DNA of 64,000 nucleotides from Actinomyces radicidentis (GCF_001553565.1 NZ_CP014228.1:2852001-2916000); one strand, 5' to 3'; shown: positions 5,216 through 38,694, counted from the stretch's first letter. Notes: generated from the sequence alone by a model not told the origin. Made by a program: numbers and translations.

Positions 5216-5989
5216 TCAGCGGGCGCGCTCGTCGAGCACCCAGAGGCTGCCGACGGCGACGGTCGCCGTCTCCTGCTCCGGCCGTGGGGCGCCGACGGGC
5301 AGGACGGCGCGCAGGACGCTAGATCGGCGCCGCGCGGACCGTCCGCTGCGGCCGGTCGCCTCCCCGGCGGCGGGAGAGGAGGCCGCGACCCGGTCGACGA
5401 CGGTGACGGGCGTGTCCAGCCCGATGCCGGCGGCGGCGAGCTCGCGCAGGGTGGCGACGTCGTCGAGGATCCGACCGACGACGCCCGTCTGCCCGACGCG
5501 CAGGGTGTCGACGCTGCGCAGCGCCGGCTGGACGCAGGTGCCGTCCGGCGCGGGGACCGGATCGCCGTGGGGGTCGCGCACCGGGTGGTCGAGCGCCTCG
5601 TCCAGGGCGGTGAGGAGACGGTCGGAGACGGCGTGCTCGAGGACCTCGGCCTCGTCGTGGACCTCGTCCCAGGTCAGTCCCAGGCGCTCGACGAGGTAGG
5701 TCTCGAGCAGCCGGTGCCGGCGCACCGTCGAGGTGGCGAGGGCGTGGCCGCGCTCGGTGAGGGTGACGGCCTTGTAGGGCTCGTGGACGAGGAGCCCGGC
5801 CTCGACGAGGCGGGTCACGTTCTCCGAGGCGGTCGAGGGCGCGACGCCCATGCGGCGGGCGAGGCCGGTGATGGAGGCGCCGGGCCCGCCCCACTCGGAG
5901 GCGGACCAGACGGCCTTGAGGTAGTCCTGGGTGACGGCGGAGTCGCCGGTCCCGGCGGGAGGGGCGGGGGTGCGGGCGTCTCGGGCCAT
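5216..5989 (-). CDS. DtxR/MntR-family metal-dependent repressor
   Basis: This is a metalloregulator of iron or manganese uptake genes. An N-terminal winged helix (ITGLARRMGVAPSTASENV, then LVHEPYKAVTLTERG) is followed by the dimerisation / metal-binding region with HRLLETYLVERLG, WDEVHDEAEVLEHAVS and an HPxxDPHGDPVP loop, all hallmarks of the family. The C-terminus (to residue 257) resembles the SH3-like FeoA domain but carries an Arg-rich insertion. The ATG at 5989 has the strong site CAGGAGGAGAC. The frame opens further to 6097, but the extension lacks family similarity. Metal specificity (Fe or Mn) cannot be read from sequence alone. Confidence 0.9.
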   Translation of the reverse strand: MARDARTPAPPAGTGDSAVTQDYLKAVWSASEWGGPGASITGLARRMGVAPSTASENVTRLVEAGLLVHEPYKAVTLTERGHALATSTVRRHRLLETYLVERLGLTWDEVHDEAEVLEHAVSDRLLTALDEALDHPVRDPHGDPVPAPDGTCVQPALRSVDTLRVGQTGVVGRILDDVATLRELAAAGIGLDTPVTVVDRVAASSPAAGEATGRSGRSARRRSSVLRAVLPVGAPRPEQETATVAVGSLWVLDERAR

Positions 5990-6116
5990 GTCTCCTCCTG
6001 ACCGTCGGTGTGCGGGGCCATTGTGCACCCCGCCGGGCCAGCCGCCGCGTGGCACTGGGTCCGCCGCGTGGCACCGCGTCCGCCGTGCGCGTCGCACCGG
6101 TCGCCGACGGCGCGCG

Positions 6117-8081
6117 TCAGTCGGCCGCGGCGGTGGACGACGCGGTCGCGGTCGCGGCGGCGCCCTGCCCCGTCGTCCCGGCCGCGGGCACCGGCTGCCA
6201 GGCGCCGACCGTCACCGAGGCGTCGGTGTGGACGACGACGGCGCGCCAGGCGAGCAGGTCGCCGTCGGTGGAGAAGGACAGGACGTGCAGGTAGGCGTCC
6301 TGGGTGACGGCGCCGAGCGAGGTGCCGCCCTTGCCGGCCCCGCTGATGAGGGCGGCCACGGGCCCGTCCTGCCCCTGGGTGACGCTCATCCCGCGCTCCT
6401 GGTGGACGTGCCCGGCCAGGAGCAGCGGCGTGCACCCGGAGGCCTGCATGGGAGCGAAGGTGTAGGGCTCGTGGATGAGCATGACGTCGACCCGGAGGCC
6501 GGCCGCCAGCGAGTCGCAGGCGACGGTGCTGAGCCGCGTCCCGAGCTGCTCGACGGTCTCGTCGCCGCGCTGCCGGGTGCCGGAGGCGTCGGTGCGCTCG
6601 GCGTCGACGTCGCCGAGCACGGTGAGCCCGGCGACCTTCTGGACGGTGCCGTCGGTGACCGTCCAGCCCATGGCGCGCAGGCGGGCGGCGGTGTCCGCGG
6701 AGTCGTGGTTGCCGATGGTGGCGACGCGGGCGGTGCCGCGCGGCACGGCCCGGTCGAGGGCGTCCACGCAGACCTGCTCGGCGGAGGAGCCCGTCATCGT
6801 GAGGTCGCCGTCGTCCATGTGGACCGCCGCGCCGGAGACCTCGTCGAGGGTTCCGGCCAGGGCGATCATGTCGAGGTTGCAGTGCAGGTCGGTGCTCATG
6901 ACGGCAGTGATGGCGCCGTCCTGGCCGGTGGTGAGGGCGCCAGTGGTGCGCGGGGTCGAGCTCGCGGAGGCGGTAGCGTCGTCGCCCGGGCTCGCGCTGG
7001 GGTCAAGGCTCGCGGTCGCCGGCTCCGAGGCGGTGGGGGCGGGCGAGGCGACCTGCCCGGTGAGGCGCTCGCGGGCGAGGGCCGTGGCCGCGGCGGAGGC
7101 GACGGCGTCGTCGTCGACCTCGCCGTCCGAGGCGGTGACGGTGGTGGTGCCGCCGACGGCCTGCGAGGCCGCCCAGGCGGCGCGGAGGTTGGCCTCGGCG
7201 GCGGTGTAGAAGCGCTCGTCCTCGTCGAGGAAGGTCTTGACGCGCGGACCGTAGGCCTCGATGACGTCGGCGACGCGGCCGGAGACCCGGGCGTCGGCGA
7301 GGGCCGTGCCGGACAGCACGTCGAGGGTGCTCCCCTGCGGAGTGCCGGCGGTGAGCCGCGGGACGAGCAGGGCGGCGACGGCGACCGCCGTGGTGGAGGC
7401 GACGAGCGCGGAGGCGGGTCCGCGGGACAGGCCGGCGCGCACGCCGTCGCGCAGGCGTCCGCGGGCGGCGAGCCGACCGGCCGCGGCGAGGGAGAGCACG
7501 ATCGACTCGAGGAGCCCGGCGCGGCGCAGGGCGTCGGCGGCGAGGGCCCGGACGCCGGCCTCGATGGTGGGCTCGGGGTGGCTGATGAGGTTGACGTAGG
7601 CGGCGCCGTCGGAGGACAGGTCCAGGCCGGCGCTCGTAGAGGACACGGCCGAGTCGTCGCCGGCAGCGGGGATCTCGCCGAGGACGACGTCGACGCCGAG
7701 CGGCGCCACGGGCGAGTCCAGGGAGACCGATCCGACGGGTCCGAGGTCGAGGGAGACGGAGGAGTCCAGGGTCGTCGACCAGTCGGCCTCGTGCGGGCCG
7801 ACGGGCGAGGAGCCGCTCGCGGTGACGACGCCGAGCAGGAGGCTGAGCGTGCCTGTGACGAGGAGCAGGGCGCTCGTGCGCACGACCCTGCGGAAGGCGA
7901 CGGTGCGGGCGTCCCAGAAGCGGGTGAGGGCGCCGTGGACGCGGGCGACCGCGTCGCGCAGCGGACCGCGGCCGGGACCCGCCTCGAGACGGCGGACCCG
8001 GCCCGGGGCGCGGGGAGTCGACGCGGCGTCCGCCTCGGGGGCGGTCCGCCGCGTCGGGTGCTCGGGCGAGTCTCCGGTCAC
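6117..8081 (-). CDS. Membrane-anchored metallophosphoesterase
   Basis: This 654-residue protein has a C-terminal calcineurin-like phosphoesterase domain. Metal-site motifs appear in order: STDLHCN, DDGDLT, GNHDSAD, LIHEP and GHVHQE. Near residue 60 is a hydrophobic segment (LLLVTGTLSLLLGVV), with a second around residue 210, so the catalytic domain is probably outside the cytoplasm. A Pro/Ala/Ser/Thr-rich linker precedes it. The GTG at 8081 is chosen because ACTGAGGAG lies ten bases upstream. Codons further upstream belong to the HAD gene in another frame. It follows the HAD gene by only 14 bases, so the two are co-transcribed. The substrate is unknown. Confidence 0.88.
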   Translation of the reverse strand: MTGDSPEHPTRRTAPEADAASTPRAPGRVRRLEAGPGRGPLRDAVARVHGALTRFWDARTVAFRRVVRTSALLLVTGTLSLLLGVVTASGSSPVGPHEADWSTTLDSSVSLDLGPVGSVSLDSPVAPLGVDVVLGEIPAAGDDSAVSSTSAGLDLSSDGAAYVNLISHPEPTIEAGVRALAADALRRAGLLESIVLSLAAAGRLAARGRLRDGVRAGLSRGPASALVASTTAVAVAALLVPRLTAGTPQGSTLDVLSGTALADARVSGRVADVIEAYGPRVKTFLDEDERFYTAAEANLRAAWAASQAVGGTTTVTASDGEVDDDAVASAAATALARERLTGQVASPAPTASEPATASLDPSASPGDDATASASSTPRTTGALTTGQDGAITAVMSTDLHCNLDMIALAGTLDEVSGAAVHMDDGDLTMTGSSAEQVCVDALDRAVPRGTARVATIGNHDSADTAARLRAMGWTVTDGTVQKVAGLTVLGDVDAERTDASGTRQRGDETVEQLGTRLSTVACDSLAAGLRVDVMLIHEPYTFAPMQASGCTPLLLAGHVHQERGMSVTQGQDGPVAALISGAGKGGTSLGAVTQDAYLHVLSFSTDGDLLAWRAVVVHTDASVTVGAWQPVPAAGTTGQGAAATATASSTAAAD

Positions 8082-25566: not shown

Positions 25567-26832
25567 ATGAGCCATCATGACGTGATCGTGGTGGGAGCGG
25601 GCCTGGCTGGCCTGGCCTGTGCCGCCGCCCTGAAGGATGCAGGCTTCAAGACCGTGGTGCTGGAAGCCACGGACCGCGTTGGCGGACGGGCCACCAGCGA
25701 CGAGGTGGACGGCTTCATACTGGAGCGCGGCTTCCAGGTGCTCAACCCCGCTTATCCCCATCTGCGCGCCACCGGGGTGCTGGCGGGCCTGGACCTCCAG
25801 CCCTTCCCCCGCGCCATCCGGGTGCGGCGCGGTGGGCAGATCGACGAGCTGGTCGACCCGACGCGCCACCCCCGGTCTGTCGCCCAGGACCTGCGCAGCG
25901 GGCTGGTCTCTCCTCGTGATCTGGCGGCGGCACGCCTCGCCCTGCAACTGACCAGCGCCGATCGTCGCCGGGGGGATGCCTTCGACGCCGCCGGTTTCCG
26001 GGGCCCGCTGCGCCGCCACGTCGTGGACCCCTTCCTCGCGGGGGTGGTGTGCGAGGCAGAGGGCTCCACCTCGCTGCGCTTTACCGCTTGGCTGGCGTCG
26101 ATGTTCCTGCGGGGTACCCCCGGCCTTCCCAAGGGCGGTATGCGACGCCTGCCCGAGGTCTTGGCCGACGGGCTCGACGTGCGCCTCGATCATCGCGTGA
26201 CAGCGGTGGACACCGTGGCGTCAGGGGTCTCGACCCCCCACGGTGATTTCACCGGGCGGGCGCTGGTCCTGGCGGCCGGTCCGATCGGCGCGGCCTGTCT
26301 GGTCGGCGAGCAGCCTCCAGTGACGCACCCGACCACCACGTGGTGGTTCGCCACGGACCGGGCCCCCAGTCACAGCGGCGCCATTCACGTCGACGGCGAG
26401 TCCTCCGGTCCGGTGATCACCACCGCGGTGGTGAGCCACGCCGCACCGGACCACGCACCTGCCGGCCAGCACCTCGTCACGGCACTGACCCTTGCCGAGG
26501 GTGACGTGACCGATGGTGATCGGGCCGGTGGCCAGGCGGCCGATCGCGGTGTTGACGAGCAGCAGGTGCTCGCACACCTGGGGCACATCTATGGCGCGGA
26601 CACCGATGGGTGGCGCACCCTTGCAGCGCACCGGATTCCCCAAACGTTGCCCGCCGTCGTCCCGGGACAGTTCGCCCACGGCCGCATCGGGTATCGAGAC
26701 GAGGCGGTGCTGTGCGGTGACCAATTCGGAAATGCCTCCATCGACGGGGCGGTCGCCTCCGGGCAAGCGGCCGCCAGCGAGGTCATCCGTCGCCTTCGCA
26801 CCCAGATGCCTGAGGGGAGGACCGCGCGGTGA
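25567..26832 (+). CDS. FAD-dependent amine-oxidase-like oxidoreductase
   Basis: This 421-residue flavoprotein has an N-terminal dinucleotide-binding motif VIVVGAGLAGLACAAALKD, then the FAD-ribose Glu in VLEATDRVGGRATS. The C-terminal FAD-contact segment is LCGDQFGNASIDGAVASGQA. The fold is that of phytoene-desaturase and protoporphyrinogen-oxidase relatives. The electron acceptor and substrate are unknown. It overlaps the photolyase start (GTGA), so the two are translationally coupled. A link to light or oxidative stress is inferred from that partner. Confidence 0.9.
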   Translation: MSHHDVIVVGAGLAGLACAAALKDAGFKTVVLEATDRVGGRATSDEVDGFILERGFQVLNPAYPHLRATGVLAGLDLQPFPRAIRVRRGGQIDELVDPTRHPRSVAQDLRSGLVSPRDLAAARLALQLTSADRRRGDAFDAAGFRGPLRRHVVDPFLAGVVCEAEGSTSLRFTAWLASMFLRGTPGLPKGGMRRLPEVLADGLDVRLDHRVTAVDTVASGVSTPHGDFTGRALVLAAGPIGAACLVGEQPPVTHPTTTWWFATDRAPSHSGAIHVDGESSGPVITTAVVSHAAPDHAPAGQHLVTALTLAEGDVTDGDRAGGQAADRGVDEQQVLAHLGHIYGADTDGWRTLAAHRIPQTLPAVVPGQFAHGRIGYRDEAVLCGDQFGNASIDGAVASGQAAASEVIRRLRTQMPEGRTAR

Positions 26833-28229
26833 CGACCCTGCTGTGGCTGCGCGACGACCTCAGGGTCCACGACCACCCGGCACTCAATGCTGCACTGCAG
26901 GACGACGGGGTCGTGGTGGCCCTGTGGATCCGCGAATGCAGCCCGCCCGAGCCCGAGGGCGAGGCGCGAGGACCGCGCCCGCTGGGAGCAGCGAGCCGCT
27001 GGTGGTACCACCAGAGTCTTGTGTCGCTCTCGCAGTCCTTGGCCGAACTGGGCATCCCCTTGCTCTTCGCCCAGGGTGACGCGCGCCAGATCCTGCCCGA
27101 CCTCGCGCAACGCTTGGGAGCAGGCACCGTCAGGTGGACTCGCCGGTACGCCCAGCCGGCCCGCGCGCTGGACGCCGAGGTGAAGGCGGGGTTGCTGGCG
27201 GCTGGTCTGGCGGCGCACAGCCACCCCGGCAGCCTGCTGGTGGAACCTTGGACGCTCTCCACCACCACCGGTGGGCACTACACGGTCTTCACCCCCTTCC
27301 ACCGCCGGGCCTCGGAGCTCGACGTGGGCGCCTGCCTGCCCGCCCCGGACACCCCGCCGCAGGACGCAGACAGCGCGATAGCGCTGCCCGACGACCTGGG
27401 TGAGGCCGTCACCCGCCAGGTCGACGACCTGGAGCTGCTCGACGACCACCCGCAGTGGTGGCGGGACACGGTCACACAGCACTGGTCCCCCGGAGAGGAC
27501 GAGGCGCTGGCCCGCCTCGACGCGATCGAGCAATGGCTACCGGGCTACCACACCTCACATGACTTGCCCGCGGACTACAACTCCACCAGCCGCCTGTCGC
27601 CCCACCTGCGTACCGGGGAGGTCTCGCCGAGGCAACTGCTCGAGGCAACCAACCGGGTTGACGTCCCGGCGGCCGACCGTCAGGCCTGGCTGCGGCAGCT
27701 CTACTGGCGTGAGTTCTGCTGGCACCTGACCTTTCACCTCGACGACCTCTCGACCCGCCCGATGCGGCCCCAGTTCGAGGCCTTTCCCTACGAACCGGAC
27801 GAGGAGCTCCTGCGGGCCTGGCAGCAGGGACGCACGGGATACGGCCTGGTGGATGCAGGCATGATGCAGCTGTGGCAGACGGGTTGGATGCACAACCGGG
27901 TGCGCATGGTCACCGCCTCATTGCTCACCAAGAACCTGCTGCAGCCATGGTGGCTGGGGGAGCAGTGGTTCTGGGACACCCTGGTGGACGCCGACGAGGC
28001 CAGCAATCCGGTCTCCTGGCAGTGGGTGGCCGGCTGTGGCGCCGACGCGGCGCCCTATTTCCGGGTCTTCAACCCCGAGCTCCAACGGCTCCGCTTCGAT
28101 CCGGATGGCGCCTACGCCACCCGGTGGCTCCGCGATGCAAGGCCCGGGTCGCTGGCACCCGTCGTCGATCTGAAGCAGTCCCGGCAGGAGGCCCTGGAGG
28201 CCTACGAGGCGGTCCGTCAGGGGCGGTGA
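26829..28229 (+). CDS. phrB: Deoxyribodipyrimidine photolyase
   Basis: This class I cyclobutane-pyrimidine-dimer photolyase repairs UV lesions with blue light. The N-terminal antenna domain starts LLWLRDDLRVHDHPAL. The FAD domain has YNSTSRLSPHLRTGEVSPRQ, LYWREFCWHLTFHLDD, QTGWMHNRVRMVTASLLTKN, WFWDTLVDADEASN and GCGADAAPYFRVFNP. At 466 residues it is full length. It starts at GTG 26829, inside the stop of the preceding gene. CPD rather than (6-4) specificity is likely from overall similarity, not proven. Confidence 0.94.
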   Translation: MTTLLWLRDDLRVHDHPALNAALQDDGVVVALWIRECSPPEPEGEARGPRPLGAASRWWYHQSLVSLSQSLAELGIPLLFAQGDARQILPDLAQRLGAGTVRWTRRYAQPARALDAEVKAGLLAAGLAAHSHPGSLLVEPWTLSTTTGGHYTVFTPFHRRASELDVGACLPAPDTPPQDADSAIALPDDLGEAVTRQVDDLELLDDHPQWWRDTVTQHWSPGEDEALARLDAIEQWLPGYHTSHDLPADYNSTSRLSPHLRTGEVSPRQLLEATNRVDVPAADRQAWLRQLYWREFCWHLTFHLDDLSTRPMRPQFEAFPYEPDEELLRAWQQGRTGYGLVDAGMMQLWQTGWMHNRVRMVTASLLTKNLLQPWWLGEQWFWDTLVDADEASNPVSWQWVAGCGADAAPYFRVFNPELQRLRFDPDGAYATRWLRDARPGSLAPVVDLKQSRQEALEAYEAVRQGR

Positions 28230-29451: not shown

Positions 29452-30129
29452 TCAGCCGAACAGCGCCGCCCCGAGCGAAAGGGCATCTGGCAGCATGAAG
29501 AGCATTCCCAGTGACCACACCAAGTGGGTGATCGTCGGCGCGAGGAAGCCCCCGGTGGCCCGGCGCTGCATCCCCACCACGGCCCCCAGCATGGCGGCCG
29601 CCAGCACCAGGAGCGGGATGCCGGAGAAGGCCGTCACGACGCTGTAGAGCACCGTGCTCAACAGCACCTGGCGGTGTCGGGGTAGCGCCTGGAACAGGGC
29701 GCCCCGGAAAAAGTACTCCTCCCCCACCCCGTTGAGCGCGGTGAGCAGGGCGACGATGGGCAGCGATCCCCGCGGCGCGTGGTTCAGAAGGTCCTGCACG
29801 GGCTCCGCCAACGGCGGCACCTGCGAGACCACCAACGCCCCGACCAGGAAGAGCACGAGCAACAGACCGCCCCAGACCAGCGACTGCAGCACTCCGTGGC
29901 TCGCCCCCTCGCCATGGCTGGAGCGAGCGTGGCCGGGCACGACTTGTCCCGACAACCGCGCGCCCGCCAGCCACAGCAGGGCGAGGGCCGCGGTGGCCGG
30001 GTAGAAGAGGCGGTCACCCGGTGCCACGGACAGCGAGGCACGCAACAGCAGTGCCCCTGCCACCAGGGTGATGAGGCAGACCAGGCGTCGCCTGAGCGGA
30101 CTATCAGCTCCGGTTGGTGACGACTCCAC
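29452..30129 (-). CDS. CPBP-family intramembrane metalloprotease, 5' end affected by IS3
   Basis: The CPBP (Abi/CAAX-like) glutamate motif is NGVGEEYFFRGALFQ, and the second conserved histidine lies in THLVWSLGM. Six or so membrane helices are predicted. Such proteases cleave membrane-bound peptides. Bacterial members serve in immunity or protein maturation. The IS3 element begins about 20 bases upstream of GTG 30129, the first in-frame start outside it. The natural N-terminus or promoter may therefore be lost. A longer frame into the IS is not credible. Confidence 0.75.
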   Translation of the reverse strand: MESSPTGADSPLRRRLVCLITLVAGALLLRASLSVAPGDRLFYPATAALALLWLAGARLSGQVVPGHARSSHGEGASHGVLQSLVWGGLLLVLFLVGALVVSQVPPLAEPVQDLLNHAPRGSLPIVALLTALNGVGEEYFFRGALFQALPRHRQVLLSTVLYSVVTAFSGIPLLVLAAAMLGAVVGMQRRATGGFLAPTITHLVWSLGMLFMLPDALSLGAALFG

Positions 30130-30199
30130 GGCAGGGTCCAGCGGGCCCTGACCCCGGGTCTTGGACACGTGGAATCCAGCAGTTACTGGAGGAAGCGAG

Positions 30200-30550
30200 A
30201 TGATCAGGACTATGGCCACGAAGAACTACTCCGATGAGTTCGGTCGGCGGGCCGTCGACTTGTACGAGTCCACTGCCGATGCCACGTTGAAGGGCATCGC
30301 CGCCGATCTGGGGGTGTCCCGGGGAACGTTGGCGCACTGGGTGAGGGCGTTCGGGACAGGTTCGACGGCTGCGCCACCACAACACTCCTCCAGCGGCGCG
30401 AAGTCGGCCGGTACCGAGTCCGCGGCGGTGAGGATCGCCCGGTTGGAGGCGCAGAACGCCCGGCTACGGGCCGACAAGGTCAAGGTCGAGACCGAGCGGG
30501 ACATCCTGCGGAAAGCGGCCAAGTATTTCGCTGGGGAGACGAACTGGTGA
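30200..30550 (+). CDS. IS3-family transposase OrfA
   Basis: This 116-residue DNA-binding subunit has an HTH (YSDEFGRRAVDLYESTADAT, then IAADLGVSRGTLAHWVRA) followed by a leucine-zipper-like coiled coil (RIARLEAQNARLRADKVKVE) that ends ERDILRKAAKYF. ATG 30200 has GGAGGAAG upstream. It overlaps OrfB by four bases. Confidence 0.93.
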   Translation: MIRTMATKNYSDEFGRRAVDLYESTADATLKGIAADLGVSRGTLAHWVRAFGTGSTAAPPQHSSSGAKSAGTESAAVRIARLEAQNARLRADKVKVETERDILRKAAKYFAGETNW

Positions 30551-31456
30551 ACCGCTTCCAGTTCGTCGCCGACCACCAGCACGCCTTGGAGGTGAAGCGG
30601 TTGTGTCAGGCTGTGGAGGTCTGTCGGTCATCGGTCTACGCCTGGTGCGCCGCCGCACCGGCCCGGGCCGAACGGGTCGTGGCCGATGCCGAGCTCGCCG
30701 AACGGATCCGGACCGTCCAGGACCCGAAGACCGGTGGTGACCCCGCCTACGGGGCACCCAGGGTGACCGCTGAACTCAACGACGGCGTGCCGGCCCAGGA
30801 CCGGGTCAACCACAAGCGGGTCGCCCGGGTGATGCGCCACCACGGGCTGGCCGGGATCCGGCCTTCGCCGCCGGGTCCGGACCACGCTGCCCGAGCCAGC
30901 CGACCAGAAGTACCCCGTCCTGCTCAGGCGGGACTTCACCGCACAGCGGCCCAACACCATCTACGTCGGCGACATCACCTACCTGCCGCTGCCTGAGGGC
31001 CGCAATCTGTACCTGGCCACCGTGATCGACTGTTTCTCCCGCAAACTCGCCGGCTGGGCGATCGCCGACCACATGCGCACCGAACTCGTCGAAGACGCAC
31101 TCAAGGCTGCCCGCCGTGACCGGGGCAGCCTGGCCGGGGCGGTGTTCCACAGCGATCACGGGTCGGTCTACACCTCGGCTGACTACGCCAAACTCTGCGG
31201 CCAACTCGGCGTCACCCAATCCATGGGTGCCGTCGCCACCAGCGCCGACAACGCCCTGGCCGAGTCATTCAACGCCACCCTGAAACGCGAACTCCTCGCT
31301 GGCGCCGCCACGTTCACCGACGCCACCAGCTGCCGGCGGGCTGTGTTGCGGTGGGCCACCCGCTACAACACCCGCCGACGCCACTGCTGGTGCGGCCACC
31401 AGTCCCCGTCCACCTACCAGGCCCACCGGGCCGCTACGCTGCCAACCGCAGCATAA
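30547..31456 (+). pseudogene. IS3-family transposase OrfB, frameshifted
   Basis: OrfB starts MNRFQFVADHQ with the HTH_21 region (VSSVYAW-like SSVYAWC, GAPRVTAEL). At about 30862 one extra C in a CGGCCTTCG context shifts the frame. The rve core continues in the other frame as NTIYVGDITYLPL, VIDCFSRKLAGWAI, VFHSDHGSVYTS and NALAESFNATLKRELL. Correcting that base would restore all three catalytic positions. Confidence 0.9.
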
Positions 31457-32461: not shown

Positions 32462-32833
32462 TCAGCTCGCTTCGCGGGCGCCCGACTCCTGGGCCTCGGC
32501 AGGTTCCTGCCATCGACCCTCGCCGGGGGGGAGCCCAACCGACTGGAGCAGACCCGGGAAGAGGTTGTCGATCGCACTGTCGCGGCGCGTGATGCGGCGA
32601 TGCTTCCCGATGGCTTCGGTGTGCATGAGGCCGGACTCTCGGAGGACCTTGAAGTGGTAGGACATCGTCGACTTGGCGACGTCGTACTTGAGGTCCAAGT
32701 CGCCGCAGAACTGCGGTCCGTCGGAGGCGATCCGCTGGAGGATGTCTCGCCGGATCGGGTCTGACAGTGCGCTGAGCACTCGGTCGAGTTCGATGTCACT
32801 CAAGGCGGGGTGATGCAACCGCTCTCTGCCCAC
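32462..32833 (-). CDS. ArsR-family transcriptional regulator
   Basis: This 123-residue winged-helix repressor has LDRVLSALSDPIRRDILQRI as helix 1, then DLDLKYDVAKSTMSYHFKVL as the recognition helices, and a wing around GKHRRITRRD. The cysteine in FCGDLD is single, so classical metal sensing is not evident. GTG 32833 follows AAAGGGCAG. It diverges from the glycosyltransferase/DUF98/MFS operon and most likely controls it from the shared 130-bp region. Confidence 0.85.
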   Translation of the reverse strand: MGRERLHHPALSDIELDRVLSALSDPIRRDILQRIASDGPQFCGDLDLKYDVAKSTMSYHFKVLRESGLMHTEAIGKHRRITRRDSAIDNLFPGLLQSVGLPPGEGRWQEPAEAQESGAREAS

Positions 32834-32902
32834 TACCTGCCCTTTCGTTGATCGCCACCCCATCCTACCGCGAGCACCACGACCTGCCGTGACTGAGCTG
32901 GC

Positions 32903-32952
32903 TTGACAGGACATGGCGATCCGGACGATTCTTATTTCGTCGAACATCGAAC
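32903..32952 (+). promoter_or_regulatory. Promoter and possible ArsR operator of the GT-MFS operon
   Basis: A perfect -35 TTGACA at 32903-32908 is followed, 18 bases on, by GATTCT as a weak -10. TCGAACATCGAAC at 32940-32952 is a direct repeat of TCGAAC with one base between. It overlaps the expected start and could bind the divergent ArsR protein. The assignment is by position only. Confidence 0.45.
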
Positions 32953-32963
32953 TGAGGATTGTT

Positions 32964-34481
32964 ATGCACCCACTTGACGAGTGGTTCCTGCACAGGTTCA
33001 CAGCGGACGGCACCCGGCTGCCTGCGGCAACGTCTGCATCAGGCGGCGAGGCCGTGACCGCTGACCAGCGGCTGCTCGACGTGGGTCTCCTCGCGCTCGT
33101 TGCCTTGGAGACAGGCGACGCGGACCCAATTGCCCAGGCCCGGCAGGCGCTGGACCGCTTCGCTGCGGACGGGAAGGACGTGCCGCCGTCGCTGCTTGAC
33201 GTGACTGGAGCCGTCCATCCTCTCGGAGGGGTCGTGAACGGTTTCGATCTTGCGGTGTGGGGCCTCGGGGTGCGGGCTCTGAATGCCGACGACAAGAGCG
33301 CCCGACGGGCCCTGGGCTTGTTGGAGTCGGTTGGATGGTCCGAGAACTTCACCAAGACCGGTGACGTCCTGGCTACCGAGCGCCGATTGGCGACTGCTGC
33401 GGCGGGTGTACTGCTGGCAGTCCGCATCGGCGAGGTTGCGCCGGTCGAGACCCTTGAGCTCTTCTGGGATGGCGCGCGGTTCTGGGATCGTGTCGATGCC
33501 GCAGGAACTACGTCGAGGGCCCTGGGCTCGACGACGCACTACCTGTCGTGGGCGCTCATGGCCTGCCGGGCTCTCGCGAATGGCAACGACGGCGGTAGCG
33601 AGTGGCAACGTCGTGCTGACAGCATCGTCACGCTGCTGCGCGATGCGGTCCTCCCCCAGGCCTGGCACCCGGGAGTATGGAGCCGCCTCGGACCCGACGG
33701 CCGTGTCTCGATGTCGCCGGAAGCCGCCTTCGCCCGCGGTGACTTCTCACCGTTCCCGGCCGTGCTCGCCTCTGACCAGGCCCTGCTGCTGGTGGCGCTT
33801 CGGGGACTCGATAGCGAGGAGGCCGGAGCCCTGCTGGACGCCGGTACGGCCCCCTATCCCCATCTGTCGGAGCCGAACATCACGTTCGTCGGGCCGATGA
33901 CCCGACCGACTCCCGAAAACGTCGACCATGCTCAGGTTCGCCGCGACCTCGGCCTCGGTTCTGGGCCGCTCGTCGTGGCATCAGTCGGCGGCACCACGAT
34001 GTTCATGGAGAACAAGCAGAACGCCGTCCAGACCTACCGGGCCGCGTTCGCGCGCCTTCGCGAGGATCATCCCGACGCGGAGATAGTCCTGATCGGTCGC
34101 GGGACCACGGGCATCGATGACGACGGCGTGCATACCCTCGATTACGTCCCCGACTGGATGCCGCTGCTCACCTGCGCCTCGGCGTTGATCGCGCAGCCCG
34201 GATGGATCACCGTCACAGAGATCGCCGCGCTCGGTGTTCCGACCATCTTCGTCCTCGGCGGGCGCGGCGAGTATCACGAGGTCGAAGCCCTGCGCCGACT
34301 CGATGCCCTGGGCTTCCCGACCTCCATCGAACCGACAGCTGAGGCGCTTCACGATCTGCTGGAAGACGCCGTCGCTGGCAGACTGGCCGACCGGTGCGCC
34401 AAGGCCTTGACCGCGCTCGCGCCCTCTGGTGATCGTGCAAGCGAAGCAGCTGCCAAGCTGATCGCGCAGGTCGCACCATGA
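32964..34481 (+). CDS. Glycosyltransferase with N-terminal helical domain
   Basis: This is a 505-residue two-part protein. Residues 1 to about 290 are helical and contain repeated hydrophobic helices (LLDVGLLALVALETG, VNGFDLAVWGLGVRALN, RRLATAAAGVLLAV, THYLSWALMACRAL), suggesting an alpha/alpha-toroid. Residues from about 310 form a GT-B C-terminal half of the MurG/GT28 type: VVASVGGTTMFMENK, then LIGRG, DYVPDWMPLLTCASALIAQP and GWITVTEIAALGVPTI. The usual GT-B N-terminal Rossmann half is not obvious. ATG 32964 has TGAGGA upstream. The stop overlaps the next gene by four bases. The donor and acceptor are unknown. Confidence 0.7.
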   Translation: MHPLDEWFLHRFTADGTRLPAATSASGGEAVTADQRLLDVGLLALVALETGDADPIAQARQALDRFAADGKDVPPSLLDVTGAVHPLGGVVNGFDLAVWGLGVRALNADDKSARRALGLLESVGWSENFTKTGDVLATERRLATAAAGVLLAVRIGEVAPVETLELFWDGARFWDRVDAAGTTSRALGSTTHYLSWALMACRALANGNDGGSEWQRRADSIVTLLRDAVLPQAWHPGVWSRLGPDGRVSMSPEAAFARGDFSPFPAVLASDQALLLVALRGLDSEEAGALLDAGTAPYPHLSEPNITFVGPMTRPTPENVDHAQVRRDLGLGSGPLVVASVGGTTMFMENKQNAVQTYRAAFARLREDHPDAEIVLIGRGTTGIDDDGVHTLDYVPDWMPLLTCASALIAQPGWITVTEIAALGVPTIFVLGGRGEYHEVEALRRLDALGFPTSIEPTAEALHDLLEDAVAGRLADRCAKALTALAPSGDRASEAAAKLIAQVAP

Positions 34482-35017
34482 CCACGGTCGATCTGATCAG
34501 ACTGCCTGCCGTCACGCGGGTGCTACTCACAAGCGATGGGTCAACGACCCGGTGCCTGCAAGCGATCGTCGGGTCAGAGGTGCGGCTCGATGTCATTGAG
34601 GATCGGGCACTCTGTGCCGGAGAGTTCGCCGTCGAGAGGGCCCATCTTGGCGCAGATGCGCCGGTGAGGCTTCGCCGTTCCCAGCTGTTCCTGGGAGACC
34701 ACGCCCTCTCGAACAACATCGTGCTGTACCCGCCGGACACCACGGAGTGGAGCCCGGGCAGCCCGCTCCCGCTCGGCCTGCAACTGCGCGGCGCGCACAC
34801 GCTGCAGCACCGGGAGATCCTCGCGGTCGGTATCGACGAGGAGTCTCATCAGGCGTTCAAGGAATACGTCATCGAGACCACGGCGAGCCCCGGACGGATC
34901 TACATCAAGGAACTGTTCTCGCCCCTTGTCGCACCCATCGCCGACACCCATGAGAACGCCCTGCTTAATTCTGCATCGATGACTCGACTCAGCGAGTCAG
35001 GAAGGAACAACCTATGA
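34478..35017 (+). CDS. Chorismate-lyase-like (DUF98) protein
   Basis: This 179-residue protein begins with the pattern RVLLTSDGSTTRCLQAIVGS, as in DUF98 enzymes (LLTxDGTxT). It continues with RLRRSQLFLGDHALSNNIVL, the Arg-rich strand preceding the active-site glutamate region. Known members such as mycobacterial Rv2949c release pyruvate from chorismate to give 4-hydroxybenzoate. Here the function is inferred from this pattern alone. It is coupled on both sides (ATGA at 34478, ATGA at 35014) to the glycosyltransferase and MFS genes. Confidence 0.6.
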   Translation: MTTVDLIRLPAVTRVLLTSDGSTTRCLQAIVGSEVRLDVIEDRALCAGEFAVERAHLGADAPVRLRRSQLFLGDHALSNNIVLYPPDTTEWSPGSPLPLGLQLRGAHTLQHREILAVGIDEESHQAFKEYVIETTASPGRIYIKELFSPLVAPIADTHENALLNSASMTRLSESGRNNL

Positions 35018-36213
35018 CACCGGGCAATACTGCTTTGAGGACCGCATCCGAACCAACGATGCGGCTGATCTCCTTCGCCACCCTCTTCGTCATCGGCACG
35101 GACACGTTCCTCACAGCCCCGCTACTCCCGCTGCTGCAACGTGAGTTCGGCGTGAGCGTGTCGCAGTCGGGCTGGCTCGTCTCGGCCTACGCACTCGGAT
35201 ACGCACTGTTCGCCCTCATCGCAGGCCCCATCTCCGACAGGCTCGACCGCCGAAAAGTCCTCCTGGCCGGGCTCATCGGATTCACCGTCTTCACCGCCGC
35301 CTGCGGTGGCACCTGGGACTTCTGGTCGCTGTTCGCCACCCGCCTATTCGCGGGCATCGCCGCCGCTTTCGTCACCCCGCAGATTTGGGCATCGATCCCA
35401 GTGACGGTCGCCCCTCCCTCGATCGTGAAGACGATGGGCTACGCGACAGCTGGACTCGCCATCGCCCAGGTCGTAGGCATCCCGATCGGCTCATTCCTCT
35501 CATCACTCGGATGGCGCATCCCCTTCTTCGCGATTGCCGCCGCCAGCGTACTGCTGTGGATCCTCCTCTACGCCCGATTCCCGAACGTGCGACCCGCCAA
35601 CGCTGCGGGGGGCCGGCTTTTCGCCCCGTACGCGCATGTGGGCCGCTCCCGGCCGCTGATGCTGTCCCTCGTGGCGTACCTGCTCTTCCAGACCGGCAAC
35701 TTCGCTGCGCTGTCCTTCATCGGTTCCTGGTTCTCCCAGGACTTCGGTGCCACTCAGACGATGATCGGTGCCGCCATGATCGTCATCGGTCTCGGAAACG
35801 CCATCGGGTCACTGACCGGCTCCCGCCTGGTCGCTCGGCTCGGGCAGCAACGGTCTCTGCTGCTGGGAATCCTCGCCCTCGGCGCGATCTACCTCGTCAC
35901 CGCCTTCGTCCACACCATGTGGATCGCCGTGGTCGTCCTCGCCCTGGGCATGCTCGTCGGTGGGTTCCTCTTCCCAGTGCTCATGAGCGAACTCCAAAGC
36001 CACACCGACCTCGCACGAGGCACCGTGTCCTCTCTGTCGAACGCGGCGATGTACGCGGGCACCACCATTGGCGGCGCCGTCGGCGGATACCTGCTGACGC
36101 AGTTCACCGGATACAGCGGCGTCGCGGTCTTCACCGTCGCTGCCTACATCGTTTCGCTCGGCGTGTACGCGTTCGGCGGCGCCTTCAAGAAGAGCACCGA
36201 AACCATCTCGTGA
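35014..36213 (+). CDS. MFS efflux transporter (DHA1-like)
   Basis: This 399-residue transporter has 12 predicted helices. The loop 2-3 signature is GPISDRLDRRKVLLAGL, with the DHA1-type N-terminus FVIGTDTFLTAPLLPLLQRE. The motif-C-like GLAIAQVVGIPIGSFL in helix 5 marks a drug/proton antiporter. It is probably the exporter for the product of the two upstream genes or a resistance pump. It is translationally coupled to the DUF98 gene and followed by a 25-codon ORF two bases on. Confidence 0.9.
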   Translation: MTPGNTALRTASEPTMRLISFATLFVIGTDTFLTAPLLPLLQREFGVSVSQSGWLVSAYALGYALFALIAGPISDRLDRRKVLLAGLIGFTVFTAACGGTWDFWSLFATRLFAGIAAAFVTPQIWASIPVTVAPPSIVKTMGYATAGLAIAQVVGIPIGSFLSSLGWRIPFFAIAAASVLLWILLYARFPNVRPANAAGGRLFAPYAHVGRSRPLMLSLVAYLLFQTGNFAALSFIGSWFSQDFGATQTMIGAAMIVIGLGNAIGSLTGSRLVARLGQQRSLLLGILALGAIYLVTAFVHTMWIAVVVLALGMLVGGFLFPVLMSELQSHTDLARGTVSSLSNAAMYAGTTIGGAVGGYLLTQFTGYSGVAVFTVAAYIVSLGVYAFGGAFKKSTETIS

Positions 36214-36215
36214 CC

Positions 36216-36293
36216 ATGGACAACGCACCCGCACCTGCGACGAGCAGCGGACTGCGACGTGAGCGATTCTTCGAAGGAAGTGAGAGCATATGA
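36216..36293 (+). CDS. Possible 25-residue peptide
   Basis: ATG 36216, two bases after the MFS stop, opens MDNAPAPATSSGLRRERFFE and five more residues to TGA 36291-36293. The stop overlaps the next ATG (36290), the same ATGA coupling as in the rest of the operon. This supports translation, although no separate Shine-Dalgarno sequence is present. It could be a short coupled peptide or the residue of a decayed gene. Confidence 0.35.
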   Translation: MDNAPAPATSSGLRRERFFEGSESI

Positions 36294-36346
36294 AAGGGAT
36301 CATTGAGGTTTTCTCACCAGAACTGACCGTGGATCATCGGCGTTGA
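36290..36346 (+). pseudogene. Truncated last gene of the GT-MFS operon
   Basis: ATG 36290 has the good site GAAGGAAGTGAG. Only MKGIIEVFSPELTVDHRR is encoded before a stop, just where repetitive, IS-end-like sequence begins. The gene was probably cut off by a mobile element. Identity cannot be told from 18 residues. From 36347 to 36480 I see only such non-coding debris. Confidence 0.4.
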
Positions 36347-36474
36347 TGCTGTGGCAAGGGGTGATGGTCGACTCGGGTGGGTGCATGCGGGTCGGGTGGT
36401 GCAGGATCGGTTTCTGCCAAGACTCCGTCCCTGTAACAGAACTGAGCCCGCATGCTGTCCTATCGTGGAGCCTG

Positions 36475-37978
36475 TCAAGGTTTTTGTGTAAGTGGGGTTG
36501 TCAGAGGTAGGGGTTGATGCGGTCGGGGTAGGCGGCGGTGAGCTGGGCGAGGGCCTGCTTCCAGCCGTTGGTGACCTGTCCTTGCACGAGGCGGCCCTTG
36601 GCCTTCCTCTTGTCCGCGGGCGTGCCGGTCTCCTTGGCCCTCTCAGCGGCGCGACGGTCCTCGATGTTGCAGACCTGCCGGCCACAACAGCTTCACGGCT
36701 GCGGCGTCACAGGGGAAGTGTCCGCGGTTCTTGGTGACCTTGCGCAGCTGGTAGCTCGTGCGAGCTCGATCGAGTTGGTCGAGGGGGCACCTCCCACGGG
36801 CGTGGGAGAGGAGATGACGCGCCGCAGGGCCGGAGGGAGGGCCAGGAACGGCGTGAGCCGCTCCCACGCCCGCTCCCACACCCCGACCGTGTCGGGGTAG
36901 CGGGTCCCCAGCGGTGAGGCCGCGAACTGGGCCAGGGCCGCCGCGGCGGCATCGGCGCTGGAGGCGGTGTAGACGGGCTTGAGGGCGGCGGCGACCTTCC
37001 TTGCGGTCCCCGTAGGACACGAACCCCCGTCCAGGAGCGGATCAGGTGCACCACGCAGGTCTGCACCATCGAGTCGGGCCACGTCGCCTCGACCGCTTCG
37101 GCAAGGCCCGTCAGCCCGTCGCATGCCCCCGCGCGCTGCGCTCCGTGCGGGAGGTGCCCCCTCTACGATCAGCACGTCCTGGATGCCGCGGCCCCGAGCC
37201 CGGGCGCACACGCCCCGCCCTTCAAGGAGGCGCCCCCTCGGCCTGCACCCAGATCCTTAAGGCACGTGCTTAACGCCCTCCATGTCGACCCCGACGGCGA
37301 TGTGGGCCGCCCTGTTGGACACGCGCCCCTGGTCACGGATCTTGACGCGGATCGCGTCGAGGTAGATCACCGGGTAGAACTCCTCCAACGGCCGCCTCTG
37401 CCACTCCAGGACGGCGTCAGCGACCGCGTCGGTGATGTTGCTGATCGTCCCGGCCGACAGCCCCCGCCCCGAGGGTGGACTCCAGGTGGTGGCCGGTGCT
37501 CGCGCACGCATCAATCCCCGCCGGCGTACCAGGCATGGTGACTCACGCCTGTCCAGGCCGCCCCGTGCCCCGGCTGCCCCCTTTGCGCACCAGACGGGGC
37601 GTGAAGGTGCCGGCACGGTCCCGAGGGACCACAGGTCTCGAAGGGGCCCACCTCGGAGTCCATCGTCTTGACGCTGGATCCGTTGCGGGCGTTGCCGCGC
37701 GCCGCCGGGGCCCTCTGGCCCTCCTCGTAGCCCAGGTGGTCGGTCAGCTCGGCCTGCAGGCCCCGCTCCAGGGTCTCCTTCAGCAGTGCGGGCAGCAGCC
37801 CGTCCGAGCCCGTCAGAGCGACCTGCCCTGAGTTGATCTGCTCGAACAGGCCGTCCAGGCCACCGCAGGCCACCAGCGCCTCGACCGCCTCACGACCCGC
37901 ACCACCCGAGGGCGCCTTCTGATCCGTCATGGTCATCAGTGTCAGTCCTTCCAGCAGGGCTTACACAAACCATTGAAC
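36475..37978 (-). pseudogene. Decayed IS256-family element and transposase
   Basis: Scattered over all three minus frames are recognisable IS256 pieces. The N-terminus is GLDGLFEQINSGQVALTGSD with ELTDHLGYEEGQRAPAARGN. The core is GLSAGTISNITDAVADAVLE with EFYPVIYLDAIRVKIRDQGR. Further on is a segment with DVLIVEG and QTCVVHLIR. At least four frameshifts break it. Both ends retain TTTGTGTAAG-like inverted termini. It differs from the intact IS256 at 17.3 kb and belongs to another subgroup. Confidence 0.85.
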
Positions 37979-38452: not shown

Positions 38453-38475
38453 AGTTTCGATTTTCTCATCTTACG

Positions 38476-38548
38476 TGGAGCTAGGGGGATTCGAACCCCC
38501 GACCTCTTCCATGCCATGGAAGCGCGCTACCAACTGCGCCATAGCCCC
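38476..38548 (-). tRNA. tRNA-Ala (GGC), downstream copy
   Basis: This is a 73-nt cloverleaf. Acceptor GGGGCTA pairs with TAGCTCC (one G-T), the D arm contains GCAGTTGGTAGCGC, the anticodon stem-loop is CTTCC-ATGGCAT-GGAAG with anticodon GGC, and the T arm is GGGGGTTCGAATCCCCC. The CCA end is not encoded. The sequence is identical to the upstream copy, 39 bases away. Confidence 0.96.
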
Positions 38549-38587
38549 GAGTAACGGGCGTCCTCACCGGCGGACCGGATCGGATCG

Positions 38588-38660
38588 TGGAGCTAGGGGG
38601 ATTCGAACCCCCGACCTCTTCCATGCCATGGAAGCGCGCTACCAACTGCGCCATAGCCCC
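38588..38660 (-). tRNA. tRNA-Ala (GGC), upstream copy
   Basis: The 73-nt sequence is identical to the other copy and has the same anticodon, GGC. It is the first gene of the two-tRNA transcript. CCA is not encoded. Confidence 0.96.
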
Positions 38661-38694
38661 GAGTATCGGGTGCCGCCCGCGGGCGACGCGGATA

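Follow-up and report, generated by a model that had tools for sequence, protein, structure and literature searches.

The locus examined here raises the question of what a short ArsR-controlled operon, described as a glycosyltransferase, a chorismate-lyase-like protein and a drug-type exporter, provides to its host, Actinomyces radicidentis. The original prediction was that these genes could make and export a glycosylated phenolic compound. Comparison of the locus, which lies in a 64,000-nucleotide stretch of the genome (the window; NZ_CP014228.1:2852001-2916000), with related clusters gives a divided answer. The proposed role fits intact clusters found elsewhere but not the window copy, in which a deletion of 2,733 bp has hit three enzymes. 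The best explanation, and one we consider probable, is that the locus is a mobile, ArsR-repressed biosynthetic cassette scarred by this internal deletion.

The basic organization of the locus was as predicted. A gene for an ArsR/SmtB-type winged-helix repressor of 123 residues with a GTG start (32462-32833, minus strand) is divergent from the operon, and its product scores above the cut-off with both HTH_20 (48.6 bits, E 8e-13) and HTH_5 (25.9 bits, E 9e-6). The operon comprises three plus-strand genes coupled by ATGA-type overlaps: a first ORF of 505 residues (32964-34481), an intact 179-residue Rv2949c/DUF98-like protein (34478-35017), and an intact 399-residue predicted exporter of the DHA1-type MFS (35014-36213; MFS_1, E 9e-47). 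Two boundaries required correction. A listed 522-residue version of the first ORF starts at 32913, upstream of the ribosome-binding site, and the start of the 505-residue form is at 32964; position 36293, first given as the end of the cluster, is that of an overlapping ORF judged spurious, and the exporter gene has its stop at 36213.

A search with one genome per species gave one further locus (L004), from a metagenome-assembled genome named as Pseudoclavibacter, and its gene order explains the first ORF. The L004 operon encodes an alpha-toroid, prenyltransferase-fold protein (703-707 residues), a hexapeptide acyltransferase, a full GT-B glycosyltransferase (408-429 residues), the Rv2949c-like protein and the MFS protein, with a divergent ArsR gene. 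The same intact order is present in another genome of the window's genus (G018, locus L005) and in two genomes of a large-genome Streptomyces-like genus (G561 and G899); the toroid protein of other genomes has 703-734 residues. BLASTN of the window against L004 returned two segments, corresponding to L004 1260-2624 and 5357-7714, which abut at window position 33834. Translated comparison identifies the first ORF as an in-frame chimera of toroid protein residues 1 to ~290 (32964-33833, plus strand) and the last ~215 residues of the glycosyltransferase, its C-terminal, nucleotide-sugar-binding half (33834-34481, plus strand). The toroid segment is 81% identical to L004 1260-2624 by BLASTN and 72-76% identical to the L004 protein (75% by tblastn), and the glycosyltransferase part is 88% identical to residues 192-408 of the L004 enzyme. 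Relative to L004, 2,733 bp (3 x 911, or 911 codons) are absent. As intact versions occur in L004, L005, G561 and G899, the fused form is the derived one. This gene order and this deletion are read directly from the aligned sequences.

The predicted glycosyltransferase is thus present only in part. A complete GT-B enzyme needs an N-terminal acceptor and a C-terminal donor Rossmann domain; the ORF retains only the half equivalent to homologue residues 192-408, its N-terminal ~290 residues being toroid protein, and its Pfam matches (Glyco_trans_1_4 and GT28-C) are weak and all fall within residues 350-468. Three pieces were removed by the deletion: the entire hexapeptide acyltransferase, the glycosyltransferase acceptor half, and the catalytic half of the toroid protein with its conserved GQGSWFSTPxDPTVPL motif and PF00432 domain. 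When the window's own genome was searched, neither the missing toroid half nor the missing glycosyltransferase half turned up at another site, and the acyltransferase gave only weak matches (34-54% over short stretches). With the toroid half, the acyltransferase and the acceptor domain lost, the original product is unlikely to be completed in this genome. Most likely the window copy can no longer finish the product; what it keeps is the regulator, the predicted lyase and the exporter. The chimera itself has most likely lost function.

The cassette is situated in an IS-rich stretch, between an IS3 element on the left (30161-31456, plus strand; HTH_Tnp_1 and rve domains, with IS3 annotations in plasmid matches) and Mutator/IS256-type transposase remnants on the right (36314-37936, minus strand; PF00872 fragments in two ORFs). 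The simplest reading is that the cassette was acquired horizontally. More broadly, window positions 13390-38000 are rich in transposase genes, several of them broken, of IS481-like, Mutator/IS256, IS30-like, IS110, ISL3-like and IS3 types (some named by eye), and are in parts poorer in GC than the remaining window sequence. Two tandem tRNA-Ala (GGC) genes (38474-38687; 102-bp units, 91% identical, 112-bp spacing) lie at its right edge and are a plausible integration target. The same stretch also carries a gene for an FAD amine oxidase-family protein with a DNA photolyase gene immediately after it (25567-28229), and then a CAAX-type protease gene (29452-30219, minus strand).

The control region of the operon is whole. 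A Sigma-70-like promoter (32903-32931, plus strand) is predicted by consensus match and three-way upstream comparison, with -35 TTGACA, a 17-nt spacer and a candidate -10 CGATTC that aligns with TAATAC in L005. Just 3' of the -10 and 5' of the ribosome-binding site is the 16-base element TTCGTCGAACATCGAA (32936-32951, plus strand), which is identical in the window, L004 and L005 despite differing flanks and recurs with 1-3 mismatches at the promoters of the Streptomyces-like clusters. A whole-genome pattern search allowing at most one mismatch located it once in the 3.05-Mb genome, at this site. Its conservation and position are strong circumstantial evidence for a putative ArsR operator. The repressor is 92% identical to its L004 homologue and has homologues in L005, G561 and G899; in L005 the gene (5497-5856) follows the MFS gene in the same orientation, instead of being divergent and upstream as in the window. 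Direct reading of the protein revealed a single Cys, in FCGD, and no CxC metal motif, and the score against NCBIfam HTH_metalloreg (44.9 bits) is under the cut-off of 55. A classical metal-responsive ArsR was dropped as a candidate since the metal ligands are missing, and the effector of this repressor is therefore probably not a metal.

The exporter is likewise retained. It is 92% identical to the L004 protein, and the NCBIfam models closest to it are efflux proteins, the best being Cmx/CmrA efflux, although it scores far under the cut-off for that model and under the cut-off for all of them. Amino-acid changes were counted on the window and L004 branches with L005 as the outgroup. The window to L004 ratio was 27:12 for the toroid remnant and 9:5 for the glycosyltransferase remnant, and 8:7 for the lyase, 8:18 for the MFS protein and 6:1 for ArsR; the pooled contrast of broken parts with whole genes is modest and based on small numbers (Fisher p 0.03). 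These rates fit relaxed constraint on the chimera and ongoing selection on the exporter, although ArsR, which is whole, has also changed more on the window branch. They also bear on a possible, if tentative, reading in which the remnant serves as an immunity device, ArsR sensing the product of cluster-bearing neighbors and inducing the MFS exporter while the lyase is a passenger. The whole operator, promoter, ArsR and MFS genes would suit such a role, as would the fact that the exporter alone has changed less on the window branch than on that of L004, and the presence of intact clusters both in the same genus and in a metagenome-assembled genome named as another genus. The small rate differences, and a lyase that is also whole with near-equal rates on the two branches, count against it. 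This role is compatible with our preferred explanation of a mobile cassette scarred by deletion.

The 179-residue protein was predicted to be DUF98-like, with a profile check as the proposed test and a chorismate-lyase fold and active-site residues as the points on which this would stand or fall. Its match to PF01947 (Rv2949c-like) has an E value of 6e-4 and 20.2 bits, just under the Pfam gathering score of 22 bits; 10 of its 19 relatives match the same family (best E 3.6e-5). A profile built from the 19 members finds the DUF98 structure 2NWI at E 1.9e-9, and the top PDB matches of an AlphaFold model (pLDDT 68) in Foldseek are 2NWI (E 1.7e-7) and Escherichia coli UbiC (1G1B, E 8.8e-6), with a probability of 1.00. 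Invariant in the 19 homologues are R66, E145, N80, R112 and Y130, of which R66 and E145 align with Arg and Glu of 2NWI and, by their position in the motifs, are the predicted counterparts of Arg76 and Glu155 of UbiC, residues that bind 4-hydroxybenzoate (PMC7879144). Identity to the window protein is 36% for the G561 homologue and 24% for that of G899; the L004 lyase (6001-6474) is ~20 residues shorter at its end owing to a 2-bp difference from the window, the L004 cluster being otherwise intact.

Genomic context provides independent support for the predicted lyase role. Of 21 homologue loci, 8 have a class II DAHP synthase gene no more than 10 kb from the lyase gene, and in G899 the class II DAHP synthase is fused to the lyase, the sole fusion among the loci, with a chorismate synthase gene nearby. 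The homologue at L041 adjoins a 4-hydroxybenzoate 3-monooxygenase (504 bits; cut-off 351). At L053 (8546-10243, minus strand) a single ORF combines a chorismate-lyase-like domain with a class II DAHP synthase, joining the first step of chorismate supply to a chorismate-using enzyme; to our knowledge, no such fusion has been described. The linkage to DAHP synthase, chorismate synthase and 4-hydroxybenzoate hydroxylase also helps to separate the lyase reading from an unlikely one, in which the protein is a UTRA-like ligand-binding protein of the same fold. UTRA effector domains of GntR regulators, which are non-catalytic, appear in the same Foldseek list, so the fold alone is no proof of a lyase, and one family member weakly matches UTRA. 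The UbiC-type Arg and Glu are nevertheless invariant in all 19 members, a DNA-binding domain is absent, and the top structural matches are to DUF98 and chorismate lyase rather than UTRA. On both the fold and the active-site residues the chorismate-lyase reading, as a structure-based prediction, holds, and 4-hydroxybenzoate would be the product.

A very unlikely alternative gives the chimera itself a new function, with the toroid N-terminal domain substituting for the glycosyltransferase acceptor domain and the shortened operon making a simpler 4-hydroxybenzoate glycoside. In its favor, the number of deleted bases is divisible by three and the downstream genes are whole. With no stops in its 505 residues and low pairwise dN/dS (0.11-0.25), also points in its favor, the chimera is either a recent fusion or still somewhat constrained. 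Against a working enzyme, the GT-B acceptor domain with its invariant GxGHNMR and SDYN...TERYDF motifs is missing, the conserved, catalytic-looking region is not in the toroid segment that was kept, the dN/dS signal is mostly older than the fusion, and the fusion parts evolve faster on the window branch. It is most improbable that misassembly produced the deletion and that the living strain has an intact cluster, given a genome in one contig rated 100% complete and L004 breakpoints with only ~6 bp (TGACCT) in common, which is too short for assembler collapse and favors illegitimate recombination.

The preferred explanation, a scarred mobile cassette, allows a pathway to be proposed for the intact cluster, which most likely makes and exports a 4-hydroxybenzoate-derived glycoside. 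The lyase would convert chorismate to 4-hydroxybenzoate and pyruvate, and we infer that the glycosyltransferase would use a nucleotide-activated sugar to glycosylate this aromatic unit or a compound derived from it. Both Streptomyces-like clusters (G561 and G899) are adjoined by rmlA and rmlB, which makes a dTDP-deoxysugar a reasonable, and probably the actual, donor. The acyltransferase and the toroid enzyme would add further modification, and the MFS protein would export the product. ArsR bound to TTCGTCGAACATCGAA, between promoter and ribosome-binding site, would keep the operon shut in the absence of its ligand, which may be the product or one of its precursors. In the window, an in-frame deletion fused the first ~290 toroid codons with the latter half of the glycosyltransferase gene and took out the acyltransferase; because the fusion is in frame, the translationally coupled downstream genes stay readable, and selection may be keeping these remaining genes.

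The lost toroid half carries PF00432 (E 2e-35 in the L004 protein), and the fold predicted for the L004 domain resembles RabGGTase beta (Foldseek E 6.6e-12). The structure model is of low confidence outside residues ~440-700, and we make no claim for the N-terminal domain. The alpha-alpha toroid of the C-terminal half is common to protein prenyltransferase beta subunits (RabGGTase beta, 6O60/3C72; PF00432), but in the toroid protein no conserved Asp-x-Cys zinc pair is apparent; it has no alpha subunit, and has an additional N-terminal helical domain and a conserved segment, GQGSWFSTPxDPTVPLxRxVMVPPR...GNxTYVPxxxKHAxTQ. The His of DAWHT/DAWHS is invariant and D-x-C is not conserved across four toroid proteins, with equivalence to the zinc site judged by eye. 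A class II terpene cyclase was dropped as a candidate, DxDD being absent from all four. Hexapeptide repeats occur in two sets in the lost acyltransferase, and the N-terminal half of this protein resembles sugar acetyltransferases such as QdtC. The intact glycosyltransferase shares the GT-B layout of MurG/UgtP-type (GT28) enzymes, with weak matches to MurG (7D1I) and the processive diacylglycerol glucosyltransferase 9WDE, but the similarity is low.

Each of the closest known systems resembles the cassette in part. Rv2949c of the mycobacterial phenolic glycolipid locus, which belongs to the same superfamily as the window lyase by profile and fold (PF01947), is a chorismate pyruvate-lyase making a phenol unit that is decorated by glycosyltransferases of the same locus (PMC3087520). 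The present cluster has no polyketide or lipid machinery and instead has the prenyltransferase-fold protein, hexapeptide acyltransferase, MFS exporter and ArsR. UbiC of E. coli has the fold (1FW9, 1G1B) and the Arg76/Glu155 pair in common with the window lyase, but it was not picked up by sequence profile, and the window protein is not in ubiquinone synthesis. The xiamenmycin cluster is also actinobacterial and begins with a small, biochemically proven Streptomyces chorismate lyase, XimC, yielding 4-hydroxybenzoate, but it continues with membrane UbiA-type prenylation (XimB), an epoxidase and an amide synthetase, and its five genes include no glycosyltransferase, toroid protein, hexapeptide acyltransferase or ArsR (PMC4053376).

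The cluster is sparsely distributed. It is carried by 2 of 49 genomes of the window's genus, and elsewhere in the order only distant matches or none were found; a match at L003 (E 9e-4) was rejected as a homologue as it is antisense to a peptide-binding protein gene, and a plasmid search with the lyase gave no matches. Lyase relatives occur in 31 Streptomyces-like genomes, mostly in other gene contexts, and among 20 neighborhoods examined, only that of G899 has toroid and acyltransferase genes near the lyase relative. No DAHP synthase or rml genes accompany the short form of the cluster, seen in the window's genus and in L004, in the stretches read. A limited search of the open-access literature found no published description of the intact cluster. 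A more speculative proposal, which we regard as doubtful, is that actinobacteria have in the intact cluster a natural-product pathway of a new class, whose soluble enzyme of protein-prenyltransferase fold would act, through a novel active site (GQGSWFSTPxDPTVPL / GNxTYVP), on a 4-hydroxybenzoate glycoside, and that the deleted copy persists as an inducible exporter system giving immunity to what neighboring producers make.

An apparently normal glycosyltransferase ORF can thus be a deletion fusion, which is a warning for the reading of such operons. The conserved unit is, by prediction, a six-gene cassette of a toroid/prenyltransferase-fold protein, a hexapeptide acyltransferase, a GT-B glycosyltransferase, a chorismate lyase, an MFS exporter and ArsR, which brings the lyase together with an enzyme of the prenyltransferase fold and is apparently undescribed. 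The occurrence of intact and deleted copies within one genus would offer a testbed for the retention of regulator and exporter as immunity in non-producers.
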